Of a stretch of DNA of 64,000 bases, positions 8,432 to 12,212 are shown piece after piece. This DNA comes from Poritiphilus flavus (GTDB lineage Bacteria > Bacteroidota > Bacteroidia > Flavobacteriales > Flavobacteriaceae). Positions within the stretch are counted from its first letter, which is position 1. Every line of letters starts with the position of its first letter. The position numbers and the translations under genes were made by a program. The DNA lies in contig NZ_WXYO01000001.1 of NCBI RefSeq assembly GCF_009901585.1, positions 682,001 to 746,000 on the forward strand. Reading direction: 5' to 3'. The notes beneath the pieces are model-generated. The model saw only the letters and a list, made by a program, of their open reading frames with translations. It did not search any database and was not told the origin of the DNA.

Positions 8432-9400
8432 ATGGCCAGAATCTTAACGGGCATACAGAGTACAGGCACTCCGCATTTGGGAAATATATTAGGGGCGATT
8501 GTCCCGGCTATTGAAATGGCAAGCAATCCCGCCAACGAATCTTTCCTGTTTATTGCGGATATGCATTCCCTGACACAGATCAAAAATGGGGATGAGCTCA
8601 GGCATAACACCTATGCCACGGCCGCTACCTGGTTGGCCTTTGGCCTCGATATCTCAAAGACTGTTTTTTACAGGCAAAGTGATGTTCCTCAGGTGACTGA
8701 ACTCGCATGGTATTTAAGTTGCTTCTTTCCCTATCAAAGGCTTACCCTGGCCCATTCCTTTAAGGATAAGGCCGACAGGCTTGAGGATGTAAACGCAGGT
8801 TTATTTACCTATCCCGTACTCATGGCAGCGGATATCTTGTTGTACGATGCTCATATTGTTCCCGTGGGTAAGGACCAGTTGCAGCATTTGGAAATGACCC
8901 GTGATATGGCCTCCCGATTCCATGCCCAAATGGGGGAAACCTTTGTTTTACCTGAGGCCCAGGTTCAAAAAGAAACCATGTACATTCCCGGTACGGACGG
9001 TGAAAAAATGAGTAAGAGTAAAGGGAACCTTATCAATATCTTCCAGGCTGATAAACAGCTAAGAAAGCAGATCATGGGTATTGTTACGGACAGCACCCCT
9101 CTGGAGGAACCTAAAGATCCGGATACAGACAATGTTTTTGCCCTGTATCGTATCCTGGCCTCAGATGAAGAAGTTGAGGCAATGAAAGCCAATTACCTCG
9201 GCGGAAATTACGGATACGGACATGCCAAACAGGCATTGTACGAACTGATCTTAAAGAAATATGAGGAACCCAGGGAGCGATTCAATTACTATATGAACAA
9301 CCTTGGGGAATTAGATGAAGCCTTGGCGATCGGTGCCGAAAAGGCCAGGAAGATAGCCGATGAGGTACTCAATAGGGTAAGAGGGAAGATCGGTTACTGA
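8432..9400 (+). CDS. trpS: Tryptophan--tRNA ligase
   Basis: 322-residue class I aminoacyl-tRNA synthetase charging tRNA-Trp. The HIGH-like signature is TPHLGN near residue 12 after the GIQSTG segment, and the KMSKS loop (GEKMSKSKGN) lies at about 192-196. Length matches bacterial TrpS (about 330). Divergent from plsC with its own promoter. A weak hairpin overlapping the stop codon (arms 9394-9400 and 9424-9430, then T-rich sequence) may be its terminator. Confidence 0.98.
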   Translation: MARILTGIQSTGTPHLGNILGAIVPAIEMASNPANESFLFIADMHSLTQIKNGDELRHNTYATAATWLAFGLDISKTVFYRQSDVPQVTELAWYLSCFFPYQRLTLAHSFKDKADRLEDVNAGLFTYPVLMAADILLYDAHIVPVGKDQLQHLEMTRDMASRFHAQMGETFVLPEAQVQKETMYIPGTDGEKMSKSKGNLINIFQADKQLRKQIMGIVTDSTPLEEPKDPDTDNVFALYRILASDEEVEAMKANYLGGNYGYGHAKQALYELILKKYEEPRERFNYYMNNLGELDEALAIGAEKARKIADEVLNRVRGKIGY

Positions 9401-9513
9401 TTTTCTATTTTCAGAAGATTTGTTCAGTAATAGGATTTTTAAGGAAAGCTGCGATCAAGGAATATCTTGACAAAAAACCAGCTGATCGTCCAAACGATCA
9501 ACTGCAAATCTTT

Positions 9514-9562
9514 AACTTAAACTATCCAAAAACTTAAGTTCATCTCTTCAAGAGTTTAAGTT
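9514..9562. repeat. Three related palindromic decamers
   Basis: AACTTAAACT (9514-9523), the perfect palindrome AACTTAAGTT (9531-9540) and AGTTTAAGTT (9553-9562). The first and third are exact inverted repeats of each other. A further hairpin GATCGT-CCAA-ACGATC lies just upstream. Confidence 0.6.
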
Positions 9563-9664
9563 AGAGTTTTGGAGAGTGCGGATTTTCACAGAAGCGGAAA
9601 TACTGCCTAACCCGGTAATTGCTTTTTATAGGCAGATTTACCACGAGATAAAATCTCGCGGTAG

Positions 9665-9713
9665 CGGCGGAACGCACTTCCGCTGGCAGCACCGCTATTT
9701 CTGAAAAACCTTC
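9665..9713 (+). repeat. 49-bp direct repeat, copy 1
   Basis: Matches 10332-10380 at 46 of 49 positions. It begins CGGCGGAACGCACTT and ends GAAAAACCTTC. The offset between copies (667 nt) differs from that of the 265-bp block, so the two duplications are not one simple event. Confidence 0.8.
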
Positions 9714-9802
9714 ATTAAAAACCTTTAGCCTAATTGAGGAGCTTCCTTCTCCGAAGTATAAGCGAAGAAATGAATAGAAAATACCGAACCAAATAGCTGC
9801 CC

Positions 9803-9831
9803 TTTCTTTTTTGCATCGCCCAAAAAAGAAA
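9803..9831. repeat. Hairpin H1 of the T-run/A-run family
   Basis: Perfect 11-bp stem TTTCTTTTTTG / CAAAAAAGAAA with loop CATCGCC. The equivalent in copy B (10741-10769) keeps 10 bp. Confidence 0.75.
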
Positions 9832-10068
9832 CAAAAAAAGTCTAGGCTTATTTTCAGTTTCTTGAAATAGACGGCGGCTTTCACATCAGCGTTATCCAGG
9901 CCGCTTTTGCTTTGCAAAATGCTCTTTGGATAACTTCCCTTGGCCATAGTGAAACCAGCCTAATTTCTATCGAAACTGAAAAGTATGCCGATTTCCTTCG
10001 GCATTATTCGACTTTTAAGAAAATTTATAACCAAAAGGGAAGCTCTTTATGGTTGTGGGTTTCCTTTT
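9804..10068 (+). repeat. 265-bp direct repeat, copy A
   Basis: Nearly identical to 10742-11005, with one indel in an A run and a handful of substitutions. Within it are a hairpin at its left edge, a hairpin around CTTTTGCTTTGCAAAATG (about 9901-9918) and an ATGCCGA / TCGGCAT hairpin. The right edge runs into another hairpin and then a copy of the dprA 3' end, so the duplicated unit is larger than this conserved core. Confidence 0.92.
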
Positions 10069-10072
10069 TGCA

Positions 10073-10098
10073 TTCCTTTTTGGACAAGCAAAAAGGAA
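10073..10098. repeat. Hairpin H2 of the T-run/A-run family
   Basis: Perfect 10-bp stem TTCCTTTTTG / CAAAAAGGAA with loop GACAAG. The stem differs from its siblings by paired substitutions that keep it intact. Confidence 0.75.
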
Positions 10099-10106
10099 AA
10101 GAAAAC

Positions 10107-10155
10107 CTATAAAGCCTCAAACATCTTGCCCGGCAAACATCGCACCCGCCCCGCA
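10107..10155 (-). pseudogene. Fossil of the dprA 3' end
   Basis: On the minus strand this reads like the last 15 or so codons of dprA: GTGCGATGTTTGCCGGGCAAG matches the intact gene with one substitution, continues to ATGTTTGAGGC, and stops at the same place (TAG at 10107-10109). One base is missing near its upstream end (GGC-GG instead of GGTTGG). It sits after repeat copy A exactly as the true dprA end sits after copy B, showing a segmental duplication that captured the gene's tail. Confidence 0.8.
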
Positions 10156-10185
10156 TTTTTACCCTCTAAGTAACTTCTTCTTGAT

Positions 10186-10211
10186 GTTCTTTTGTCTTGA
10201 AACAAAAGAAC
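10186..10211. repeat. Hairpin H3 of the T-run/A-run family
   Basis: Perfect 10-bp stem GTTCTTTTGT / ACAAAAGAAC with loop CTTGAA. Confidence 0.75.
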
Positions 10212-10331
10212 TAAAAGTTCAAGAAGATTTTTAGGAAATTTTTGCCGTTAGCAAAACCACGGATGCTGCTAACGCTACATGCTCTCTTCCGCCTGGCTGG
10301 CATTTCTAAAAATTGGATTTACAAAACTACA

Positions 10332-10380
10332 CGGCGGAACGCACTTTCGCTTGCAGCACCGTTATTTCTGAAAAACCTTC
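10332..10380 (+). repeat. 49-bp direct repeat, copy 2
   Basis: Second copy of 9665-9713 with three substitutions. What follows it diverges from copy 1. Confidence 0.8.
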
Positions 10381-10496
10381 GGCTAACTTTAGTACTAAAA
10401 GCTTTGATGAATGCCAAGTCTTTTTGGGCAGCATAGGAGGCAAGCTTCGTAAAGAATCGCCGAAGCCCTGGAGGCGATTTAGAAGAATGGCTTCGG

Positions 10497-10576
10497 TTTT
10501 AAAGCGGAGCTTTAAAAATGCCTCTCCAAAAAGTGTCTTTTCTTTTGTTTCGTTTTCTTTGGACAAGCAAAGAAAA
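10497..10576. repeat. Two perfect hairpins (one of them H4 of the T-run/A-run family)
   Basis: TTTTAAAGC-GGA-GCTTTAAAA (10497-10517) is a perfect 9-bp stem with a 3-nt loop. H4 is TTTTCTTTG / CAAAGAAAA (10553-10561 and 10568-10576) with loop GACAAG. Confidence 0.75.
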
Positions 10577-10616
10577 TGAAAAGCCAGATAGAAAGTCTTA
10601 GCGTCTGACAATTACA

Positions 10617-10639
10617 AGCACGGATTGCAAATCCGCGCT
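10617..10639. repeat. Palindrome around GGATTGCAAATCC
   Basis: Stem AGC-A-CGGATT / AATCCG-C-GCT around the loop GCA; only one mismatched pair. My recollection is that sequences of this kind recur in intergenic regions of many Bacteroidota genomes, which is not tested here. Confidence 0.6.
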
Positions 10640-10683
10640 AACTGTGAAAATACATACGGAGAAGTTCCCTTTTCTTTGATTCG

Positions 10684-10707
10684 TTTCTTTTGGGTAAGCA
10701 AAAGAAA
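10684..10707. repeat. Hairpin H5 of the T-run/A-run family
   Basis: Perfect 9-bp stem TTTCTTTTG / CAAAAGAAA with loop GGTAAG. Confidence 0.75.
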
Positions 10708-10741
10708 TGAATATACCATCCTGTGATTGCTGGGATAAATG

Positions 10742-11005
10742 TTCTTTTTTGCATCGCCCAAAAAAGAAACAAAAAAGTCTAGGCTTATTTTCAGTTTCTT
10801 GAAATAGACGGCGGCTTTCACTTCCGCGTTATCCAGGCCGCTTTTGCTTTGCAAAATGCTCTTTGGATAACTTCCCTTGGCCATAGTGAAACCAGCCTAA
10901 TTTCTATCAAAACTGAAAAGTATGCCGATTTCCTTCGGCATTATTCGACTTTTAAGAAAATTTATAACCAAAAGGGAAGGACTTTATGGTTTTGGGTTTC
11001 CTTTT
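10742..11005 (+). repeat. 265-bp direct repeat, copy B
   Basis: Second copy of 9804-10068, offset 938 nt. It ends about 100 nt before the dprA stop codon; the corresponding distance in copy A is about 40 nt, the difference being an extra ~60-nt segment here (about 11006-11080). Confidence 0.92.
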
Positions 11006-11108
11006 CCAAAGAATAGATCGAGAAAGCTTTGACTGGTGCCATCCCGTCGTAATGAAAGGATGGCGAAGTTGCGAGATCGGTTTTGCAAAGCAAAAAGGAA
11101 TAATAAAT

Positions 11109-12212
11109 CTAAACCGCCTCAAACATCTTACCCGGCAAACATCGCACCCAACCCTGCATTTCCATCTCAAATAAAGAAGAACTAACCTTATATACAGGCA
11201 AACGGCACTCCAAGGCTATGGTGTCCAGTAATTGCTTCCCGTGCTTAGTGAGATATTCATAGATGTGTTTTTCCTTATCGTTCATTTCGGTGAATAAAGA
11301 CTGCTGCCGGGGTTTTTTCACCATTGTGTCCTTATCCCAATTCATCAAATAAATGAGGTCTGCGGCCGAAGTTATGAGCTGAGCACGATGACCTTTGATC
11401 AGTTGATTACAGCCCTGACTGAACTTGTCTGAAACCCGGCCAGGTACGGCAAATACCTCCCGATTGTAACTATTCGCAAGAGCTGCGGTCACCAGGCTCC
11501 CGCCTTTATCTGCAGATTCTACCACAACTGTTGCCTCACTCATTCCGGCAATGATCCGATTCCGCCGGAGAAAATGCATTCTGTCCGGGATACTGCTGCT
11601 CCAGAATTCGGTAACAAAACCTCCATTGACCTCAACGGAGGCCTGATATTTCTTATGCGGCTTTGGGTAGATCTGATTTAGCCCATGTGCCAGGCAACCT
11701 ATGGTTTGAAGATTAGCCTGCATAGCAGCTTTCTGAATGGCAATGTCTATACCATAGGCAAAACCGCTCACCACAACAGGATTAAAGGGAGCGAGTTCCT
11801 CAATGAACTTTTCGCAAAAAGCCTTTCCATTTGGGCTGGGTGTACGTGTCCCGACCACACTTAGCACTCTTTTATTCTCCAGTCTAATATTTCCCTTCAT
11901 GAATAACAGAAAGGGGCCATCGGAACAATGTTTTAGGTAATCAGGATATTCCACATCCGTAAATAGGGCGACATCAAATTTGTTGGATCTTATAAAATTG
12001 TACTCTGCTTCGGCTTCGGCCAGGTATGTCTTTTTGTGCAATTCATGAAGGGTAAATGTCCCTATTCCCTCAATTTTTGAGAGACTTCTTTTGCTGTCTG
12101 AAAAAACCGCCTCAGGACTTCCGCAGTAACTTATAAGCTTTTTAGCTGTTATGTCCCCAATATTTGGGATTCTCTGTAATCTTAATGCCGAAAGCAATTC
12201 ACTAGCTGTCAT
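11109..12212 (-). CDS. dprA: DNA-processing protein DprA
   Basis: 367 residues. DprA binds incoming single-stranded DNA during natural transformation and loads RecA. Domains in order: an N-terminal helix-hairpin-helix/SAM-like region (about 1-70, IPNIGDITAKKLI), the extended Rossmann fold with VVGTRTPSPNGK, VVSGFAYGIDIAIQKAAM and the RNRIIAGMSE...DKGGSLVTA region, and a C-terminal winged helix (about 305-367). It lies alone on the minus strand; its 3' end abuts the repeat-rich interval, which contains a fossil of its tail. Competence has not been shown by anything else in the window except a TfoX-domain protein at 30627. Confidence 0.96.
   Translation of the reverse strand: MTASELLSALRLQRIPNIGDITAKKLISYCGSPEAVFSDSKRSLSKIEGIGTFTLHELHKKTYLAEAEAEYNFIRSNKFDVALFTDVEYPDYLKHCSDGPFLLFMKGNIRLENKRVLSVVGTRTPSPNGKAFCEKFIEELAPFNPVVVSGFAYGIDIAIQKAAMQANLQTIGCLAHGLNQIYPKPHKKYQASVEVNGGFVTEFWSSSIPDRMHFLRRNRIIAGMSEATVVVESADKGGSLVTAALANSYNREVFAVPGRVSDKFSQGCNQLIKGHRAQLITSAADLIYLMNWDKDTMVKKPRQQSLFTEMNDKEKHIYEYLTKHGKQLLDTIALECRLPVYKVSSSLFEMEMQGWVRCLPGKMFEAV

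Follow-up and report, generated by a model that had tools for sequence, protein, structure and literature searches.

Interspersed elements of Poritiphilus flavus and other bacteria with hairpin ends whose sequences suggest a triple-helix pseudoknot

Introduction

The trpS and dprA genes of Poritiphilus flavus are separated by an intergenic stretch that holds several hairpins of one plan, a T-rich arm, a short loop and an A-rich arm. The locus raises the question of what such hairpins are, and what keeps the two arms of each stem in step. In this paper we analyse a window of 64 kb (the whole stretch of DNA under study) within contig C10 of the 5.0 Mb source genome, and we follow the hairpins through that genome, through the sampled family of the source genome (119 further genera) and through a pattern scan of other bacteria.

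Results

The intergenic island

The convergent genes trpS (8432-9400, + strand) and dprA (11109-12212, - strand) bound an island of 1.7 kb (9401-11108). A preliminary description, made from the letters alone, had reported at least five separate T-rich hairpins with perfect stems of 9-11 bp. We find six, all in this one island: 9803-9831 (11 bp, loop CATCGCC), 10073-10098 (10 bp, GACAAG), 10186-10211 (10 bp, CTTGAA), 10553-10576 (9 bp, GACAAG), 10684-10707 (9 bp, GGTAAG) and 10742-10768 (10 bp, CATCGCC). Through one G.T wobble each, the stems at 10553 and 10684 lengthen to 14 bp (10548-10581 and 10679-10712). Stems of 9 bp or more number 7 in 9401-11108, whereas 500 dinucleotide shuffles of the intergenic region give a mean of 0.19 and a maximum of 3. 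A family descriptor applied to the entire window gives 6 matches, all inside the island, where shuffled windows give a mean of 0.08 and a maximum of 1 (60 shuffles). The description would have failed had such stems been no commoner than in shuffled sequence, which these counts exclude, or had one recent duplication explained the copies. Duplication accounts for only two of the six: 9804-10068 and 10742-11005 are 97% identical copies, so that the two CATCGCC hairpins are not independent. The further claim that the stems are mutually different stands for the remaining four hairpins, which do differ in sequence, and falls for this pair.

The hairpin family is not confined to the window, and a search of the genome, as the preliminary description had proposed, finds family stems in other islands at counts above a reversed-pattern control (23 against 3 for one pattern; 88 against 28 for a second, palindromic pattern counted on both strands). 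About 25 further genomic places, recovered by sequence search, hold modules of the island in various combinations, as mosaic intergenic islands. The stretch C10:1-337000 has 6 perfect family stems, all at 193-208 kb. The region C10:193000-232000 appears to be a hot spot, with several mosaic islands amid ordinary genes (a subtilase, a TPR/LuxR protein, an FG-GAP protein and a molybdopterin-binding dehydrogenase). A clustering of the hairpins near competence genes finds no support: the island adjoins dprA, yet the flanks at two other loci checked are ordinary genes.

Thirteen relatives also have trpS and dprA side by side in convergent orientation, separated by 3-6 bp in at least seven of these and by up to 1207 bp in the rest; no T-hairpins lie between the two genes at any relative's locus examined. 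Because trpS and dprA can abut without hairpins in relatives, the island is an insertion in the source lineage. We rejected protein-coding remnants as its origin, since none of the island ORFs has a Pfam match. Just past trpS, at 9479-9504 on the - strand, we also observe a terminator-like hairpin, whose orientation would end dprA-derived transcripts that cross the whole island.

Element structure and boundaries

When copies are aligned, the loop is complementary to a short upstream sequence of 4-6 nt, which we call X, and X is followed by a T-rich linker, L1, and then by the stem. In the window the hairpins form the ends of longer elements. Element A is an interspersed element of 296 bp (9803-10098) with outward-facing hairpin ends, the left on the - strand and the right on the + strand, and its left part is 97% identical to 10742-11005. 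Its left end (9803-9831, - strand, type 1) reads TTTCTTTTTTG, loop GGCGATG, CAAAAAAGAAA on the - strand, with the T-run of L1 at 9832-9842; no complementary X was found for this end. Its right end (10073-10098, + strand) reads TTCCTTTTTG GACAAG CAAAAAGGAA and has a degenerate X, as do several of the window copies.

Element B (396 bp, 10186-10581) is an outward pair with both ends intact, and an outward pair of the same length, an 84% identical match, lies at C16:239953-240348. The left end of element B (10186-10211, - strand, type 3) has the stem GTTCTTTTGT/ACAAAAGAAC and the - strand loop TTCAAG, which serves as X'. Its L1 is CTTTTA (10212-10217, - strand), with a run that matches the A4 of the 3' arm, and its X is CTTGAA (10218-10223, - strand), complementary to that loop. 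At the right end, on the + strand, X is TGTCT (10534-10538) and its partner GGACA, which gives one G.U besides four Watson-Crick pairs with the loop; the putative third strand L1, TTTCTTTTG (10539-10547), is a parallel (Hoogsteen) match to the 3' arm AAAGAAAAT; and the hairpin is TTTCGTTTTCTTTG GACAAG CAAAGAAAATGAAA (10548-10581). Homology among the genomic copies of this end stops at 10581.

A third + strand end (variant Z, 10666-10712) has a degenerate X (TCCC), the linker TTTTCTTTG and the hairpin ATTCGTTTCTTTTG GGTAAG CAAAAGAAATGAAT. The second, recent copy of the type 1 half-element occupies 10742-11005 on the - strand (97% to 9804-10068), with its hairpin at 10742-10768 and its right part interrupted. 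Outside the T-hairpin family there is also a separate RAYT-type REP hairpin, GCACGGATTGCAAATCCGCGC, at 10617-10640, with a 24/24 match to a copy beside the genome's single RAYT gene; the sequence GCGCGGATTTGCAATCCGTGC is common to the island and to the flank of that gene (L011 6842-6865).

The outer boundary of the elements is sharp in the source genome. For classes X, Y, Z and type 1, copies that are 0.93-1.0 identical up to the last base of the 3' arm drop to 0.39-0.67 over the ten bases that follow and to about 0.3 farther out. Most copies of type 3 ends retain a further ATCAAG past the 3' arm, and in several other genomes the repeat runs 20-60 nt beyond it, so the putative triplex is not always terminal. 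Outward-facing motif pairs 223-507 bp apart were found nine times in the source genome and eight times in the genome scan. They are found across several phyla, one case being a G+C-rich genome whose ends are T5CT3 and T4CT3. With these end pairs, and with a site that lacks hairpins in relatives, the elements are short, non-coding, inserted and inverted at their ends, as MITE-like elements are. No target-site duplication is obvious in the element flanks displayed.

Tandem arrays also occur: a Taibaiella MAG has units of 197-199 nt, genome G123 units of about 309 nt. An upstream core, TGTYTGA-hairpin-GAGTT, precedes the motif by 84-116 nt in 16 of 117 cases, against 1 of 117 downstream (seen upstream at L065, L081, L097, L107, L114, L128, L129, L130, L148, L175, L182, L236-L238 and L256), and a Patescibacteria copy folds with z = -8.4. 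From the end pairs, the tandem arrays, the upstream core and the folding z-score we conclude that the elements are longer structured units. The core has a variable hairpin, is closed by a long helix and resembles an asymmetric internal loop such as a larger class of structured RNAs might contain. By eye, a second apparent H-type pseudoknot with covarying helices can be seen straight after the 3' arm at L235-L240 (GCTGG..CCAGC with AACG..CGTT; CATCG..CGATG with AAGCG..CGCTT).

Covariation of loop, linker and stem

We scanned one genome per species with the pattern CTTTTTGGNNAAGCAAAAAG, which leaves free two loop letters and everything outside the pattern, and obtained at least 114 loci with 122 matches. 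Among the matches listed, the free loop letters predict X: GACAAG goes with TGTC(C/T), GCGAAG with TCGCC, GGCAAG with TGCC(C/T), GCCAAG with TGGCC and GTCAAG with CTTGAC. A match between loop and X is found in 75 of 123 oriented hairpins, whereas permuting the loops among hairpins gives a mean of 15.6 and a maximum of 25. The X:loop pair classes include TGTCC:GGACA, TCGCC:GGCGA, TGCCC:GGGCA, TGGCC:GGCCA, TACCC:GGGTA and CTTGAC:GTCAAG. The viral contigs served as a negative control; they gave six chance matches to the pattern, all without X and without an extended stem, and carriage by phages was rejected on this ground.

For a count of pairs we used a gap-free alignment of 72 distinct sequences that consists of X, five linker bases, the 11-bp stem and the loop. 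It leaves out the variable remainder of L1 and the TCAAG class, in which the register is off by one. The inner seven stem pairs are set by the search pattern and are uninformative; the information comes from X:loop and from the four outermost stem pairs. Pairing holds in 90.9% of the cells of this alignment; shuffling lowers this to 77.5%, and sliding the partner to 51-60%. The covariation score, 0.343, compares with 0.109 (sd 0.010) for shuffled and at most 0.100 for slid alignments. Both of the interleaved helices have pairs changed on both sides, as an H-type pseudoknot requires. The preliminary description had read paired changes as a constraint on structure, and the constraint proves stronger than was claimed: covariation in the 72 sequences is accompanied by covariation between loop and X and between the linker and the A-rich arm. 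Mismatches in otherwise paired stems also reveal a strand polarity, with G.T 25 times and A.C 3 times on the motif strand. This excess indicates that the motif strand is the constrained one, as RNA or as single-stranded DNA.

The linker L1 mirrors the 5' arm and hence matches the A-rich 3' arm in parallel, in the Hoogsteen sense. The length of the first run in L1 equals that of the A-run in 55 of 62 motifs of the GNNA class. Without the cases selected by the scan the agreement is 23 of 26, where 7.6 are expected (0 of 5000 permutations), and for the second run it is 24/24 against 8.2. Where the two runs are of unequal length (asymmetric cases), the parallel order fits 22 of 23 cases and a direct repeat none of the 23. 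Runs of 3, 4, 5, 6 and 7 all occur, matched in three strands, and this three-strand covariation is shown by the sequences themselves. Shared ancestry does not explain the agreement, because run lengths differ between the two ends of one element (T5CT3 and T4CT3 at L148) and between adjacent copies (T6 and T5 at L115). The code has exceptions. The TCAAG class taken alone has no excess of run-length agreement (15/26 against 14.8 expected), its linker being T5 largely regardless of A4 or A5. Opposite the stem G that interrupts the A runs, the L1 base is C in 27 cases, G in 21 and A in 5, so a C.G-C triple is not universal. We regard the three-strand pattern as the mark that an H-type pseudoknot containing a U.A-U/C.G-C triple helix leaves in the sequence. 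On the evidence of sequence, this fold is strongly supported, and the formation of the triplex itself is inferred.

Taxonomic distribution and gene context

The matches listed span Flavobacteriales, Chitinophagales, Sphingobacteriales, Saprospiraceae, Prevotella, Burkholderiales, Desulfobulbaceae, Oscillospiraceae, Patescibacteria and others, and the hairpin-end architecture recurs in Bacteroidota, Proteobacteria, Oscillospiraceae and Patescibacteria. Among these matches many of the motif genomes are MAGs; the isolates include Mucilaginibacter arboris, Sphingobacterium sp. SGG-5 and Undibacterium umbellatum. Many of the genomes G143-G156 have one dominant loop class, with GCGAAG throughout an Oscillospiraceae MAG and GGCAAG throughout a Taibaiella MAG, and this suggests genome-specific families or a co-evolving factor. 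Two congeners (G123 and G136) carry different loop classes, which makes an orthologous comparison uninformative.

Between co-directional genes, 44 motifs are sense and 18 antisense to the gene upstream, and 25 sites are convergent against 5 divergent. These counts rest on crude ORF calls and on copies that are not independent. The orientation bias depends on the gene calls, being absent with short ORFs and a partial sense bias with ORFs of at least 150 aa. Patescibacteria copies have their motif antisense to both flanking genes; this and the merely partial sense bias are evidence against an RNA reading.

A search of Rfam 15 over the elements gave no family at the gathering score and only weak sub-threshold matches over the hairpins, and literature searches by sequence string returned no matching description. 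Acido-Lenti-1 was rejected as the identity of the motif, as it lies about 1.7 kb distant from it in L082. That Acido-Lenti-1 RNA (RF01687, 42 bits, L082 2421-2466) is in a Chitinophagaceae contig, outside the phyla in which it was first reported.

Discussion

We propose that the T-hairpins are the ends of miniature interspersed elements and that single strands of these elements, probably as 3' UTR RNA, terminate in a MALAT1-like triple helix with a protective role, and we put the probability of this reading at about 0.55. The hairpins are the termini of elements of about 220-510 bp, inserted in intergenic regions that mostly lie 3' of genes. The strand that has its 3' end at a given terminus reads X, L1, 5' arm of the stem, loop X' and A-rich 3' arm; X would pair with the loop and L1 would lie along the A-rich arm, giving the triple-helix pseudoknot. 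The folded strand is most likely RNA, in 3' UTRs on either strand, and its triple helix would bury the A-rich 3' tract and halt 3'-5' exonucleases, as MALAT1 and ENE elements do in eukaryotes. There are no RNA data, and the choice of RNA over single-stranded DNA, the protective role and the mechanism of mobility are all inferences, as is a mobilising factor that remains unidentified. Our wider proposal, that these are mobile elements spanning phyla whose transcripts from both strands end in a genomically encoded MALAT1-like pseudoknot protecting RNA 3' ends, and that they are the first bacterial ENE-like element, is offered only tentatively.

The main rival is that the same fold acts as single-stranded DNA, with ends recognised by an unidentified transposase or recombinase that reads the folded strand. 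We consider this possible, if rather doubtful. It would account for the insertion of the elements and for their paired outward-facing ends, which are unlike in sequence and like in architecture; the G.T wobble bias is equally expected of single-stranded DNA; and the tendency of genomes to have their own loop class is what a co-evolving substrate and enzyme would produce. In IS200/IS605-type elements, both hairpins are on one strand. Here, the two ends of an element take opposite strands. Searches for Y1 transposases, reverse transcriptases and TnpB yielded no mobilising enzyme. Of 16 motif genomes, 5 lack a Y1 transposase, and no X-positive T-hairpin lies in the roughly 95 kb around 28 Y1 loci and the source genome's own RAYT. 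TnpB is absent from 12 of 13 motif genomes and reverse transcriptases (of group II introns, retrons or others) from 6 of 13, and on these counts we rejected a TnpB partner or TnpB omega-RNA and a reverse-transcriptase partner. Some of the motif genomes, being MAGs, are incomplete.

The same searches largely refute the idea that the T-hairpins are REP sequences of a Bacteroidetes RAYT family of subclass 2.6, which we now think very unlikely. The source genome does have one RAYT (NF047646, 97.8 bits), with part of the 5' module of the elements and a REP hairpin beside it, and atypical secondary structures have been reported in the flanks of subclass 2.6 (PMC6006769). The T-hairpins themselves flank neither this gene nor any of the 28 Y1 loci, and five motif genomes have no Y1 gene; a RAYT/REP origin was rejected on these grounds.

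It might also be asked whether the palindromes are perfected by intrastrand template switching, without any selection on the fold. Perfect stems of varied sequence, as observed, are what this process predicts, but it predicts neither the X:loop covariation and the parallel L1 code nor the recurrence across phyla with equal spacing and loop pattern, and we disfavour it as highly improbable. The preliminary description had left the choice between selection and copying with correction. Its constraint on structure is borne out; copying with correction would explain the perfect palindromes and is insufficient, because it does not predict the two additional layers, X:loop and L1:A-arm. That the hairpins are intrinsic terminators, as the position of many between convergent genes or downstream of genes might suggest, is likewise highly improbable, since the stems are A/T-rich with no T tract after them and an intrinsic terminator scan found none at any hairpin (3 in total against a shuffled mean of 2.4).

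In E. coli, protection of mRNAs against 3' exonucleases is attributed to REP elements. The T-hairpins share with REP/BIME and RAYT systems (PMC6006769, PMC3733652) the form of short extragenic palindromes in many copies, the mosaic islands and the avoidance of gene 5' regions. They differ in that they need no Y1 gene and have none nearby, and in that the T-hairpin is the end of a longer element with an upstream pairing strand and a mirror linker. H-type pseudoknots with a major-groove triplex, such as the SAM-V riboswitch (PMC6061858), share the strand order P1-L1-P2-P1'-P2' with the T-hairpin ends and place L1 in the P2 major groove, whereas the T-hairpin elements lack a ligand or ribosome-site context, vary freely in both helices, and are found in a 3' rather than a 5' gene context in many copies per genome.

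The MALAT1 triplex has nine U.A-U triples and one C+.G-C and was tested against RNase R (PMC11411715), and an ENE triplex increases the mobility of an Arabidopsis retrotransposon (PMC12501189). What the bacterial repeats would have in common with both (PMC11411715, PMC12501189) is a U-rich third strand that runs parallel to an A-rich tract encoded in the genome and forms U.A-U and C.G-C triples, a like arrangement of Hoogsteen, Watson-Crick and A-rich strands, and a position at the 3' side; ENEs, too, occur in the RNAs of transposable elements. The parallel arrangement of U-rich strand and A-rich tract is seen at the level of sequence only (22/23 asymmetric cases). The other hallmark of these elements, a U-rich internal loop receiving a 3' A-rich tail, is absent, the strand order being that of an H-type pseudoknot. 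The bacterial repeats further differ in having the third strand 5' of the stem and in occurring on both strands, and their protection is only inferred.

Another candidate is the GUCCY-hairpin motif, for which Weinberg 2010 (PMC2864571, Table 1) gives Bacteroidetes and Proteobacteria as hosts and an uncertain status as RNA. As far as that table entry goes, the name could fit an X of GUCC(U) followed by a hairpin, and the motif is not in Rfam. It may be a partial earlier sighting of T-hairpin ends, and its identity with them is a lead only.

Palindromic interspersed elements are known, and so are triple-helix pseudoknots; none of the sources searched contains their combination with a three-strand code across phyla. 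Our data suggest a knotted triple helix of one folded strand, which is not known from bacterial repeats. We found no Rfam family and no like description in the literature, despite copies in several phyla. Sequence evidence for a triple helix is seldom as direct as this three-strand code with runs from 3 to 7. If the fold forms in single-stranded DNA, it points to an undescribed mobility system that recognises structure. If the RNA triplex of our preferred reading forms, bacteria would possess a portable, interspersed 3'-end structure comparable to the eukaryotic and viral ENE, and the elements would offer a precise, mutable test object for how interspersed repeats affect the stability of bacterial mRNA.
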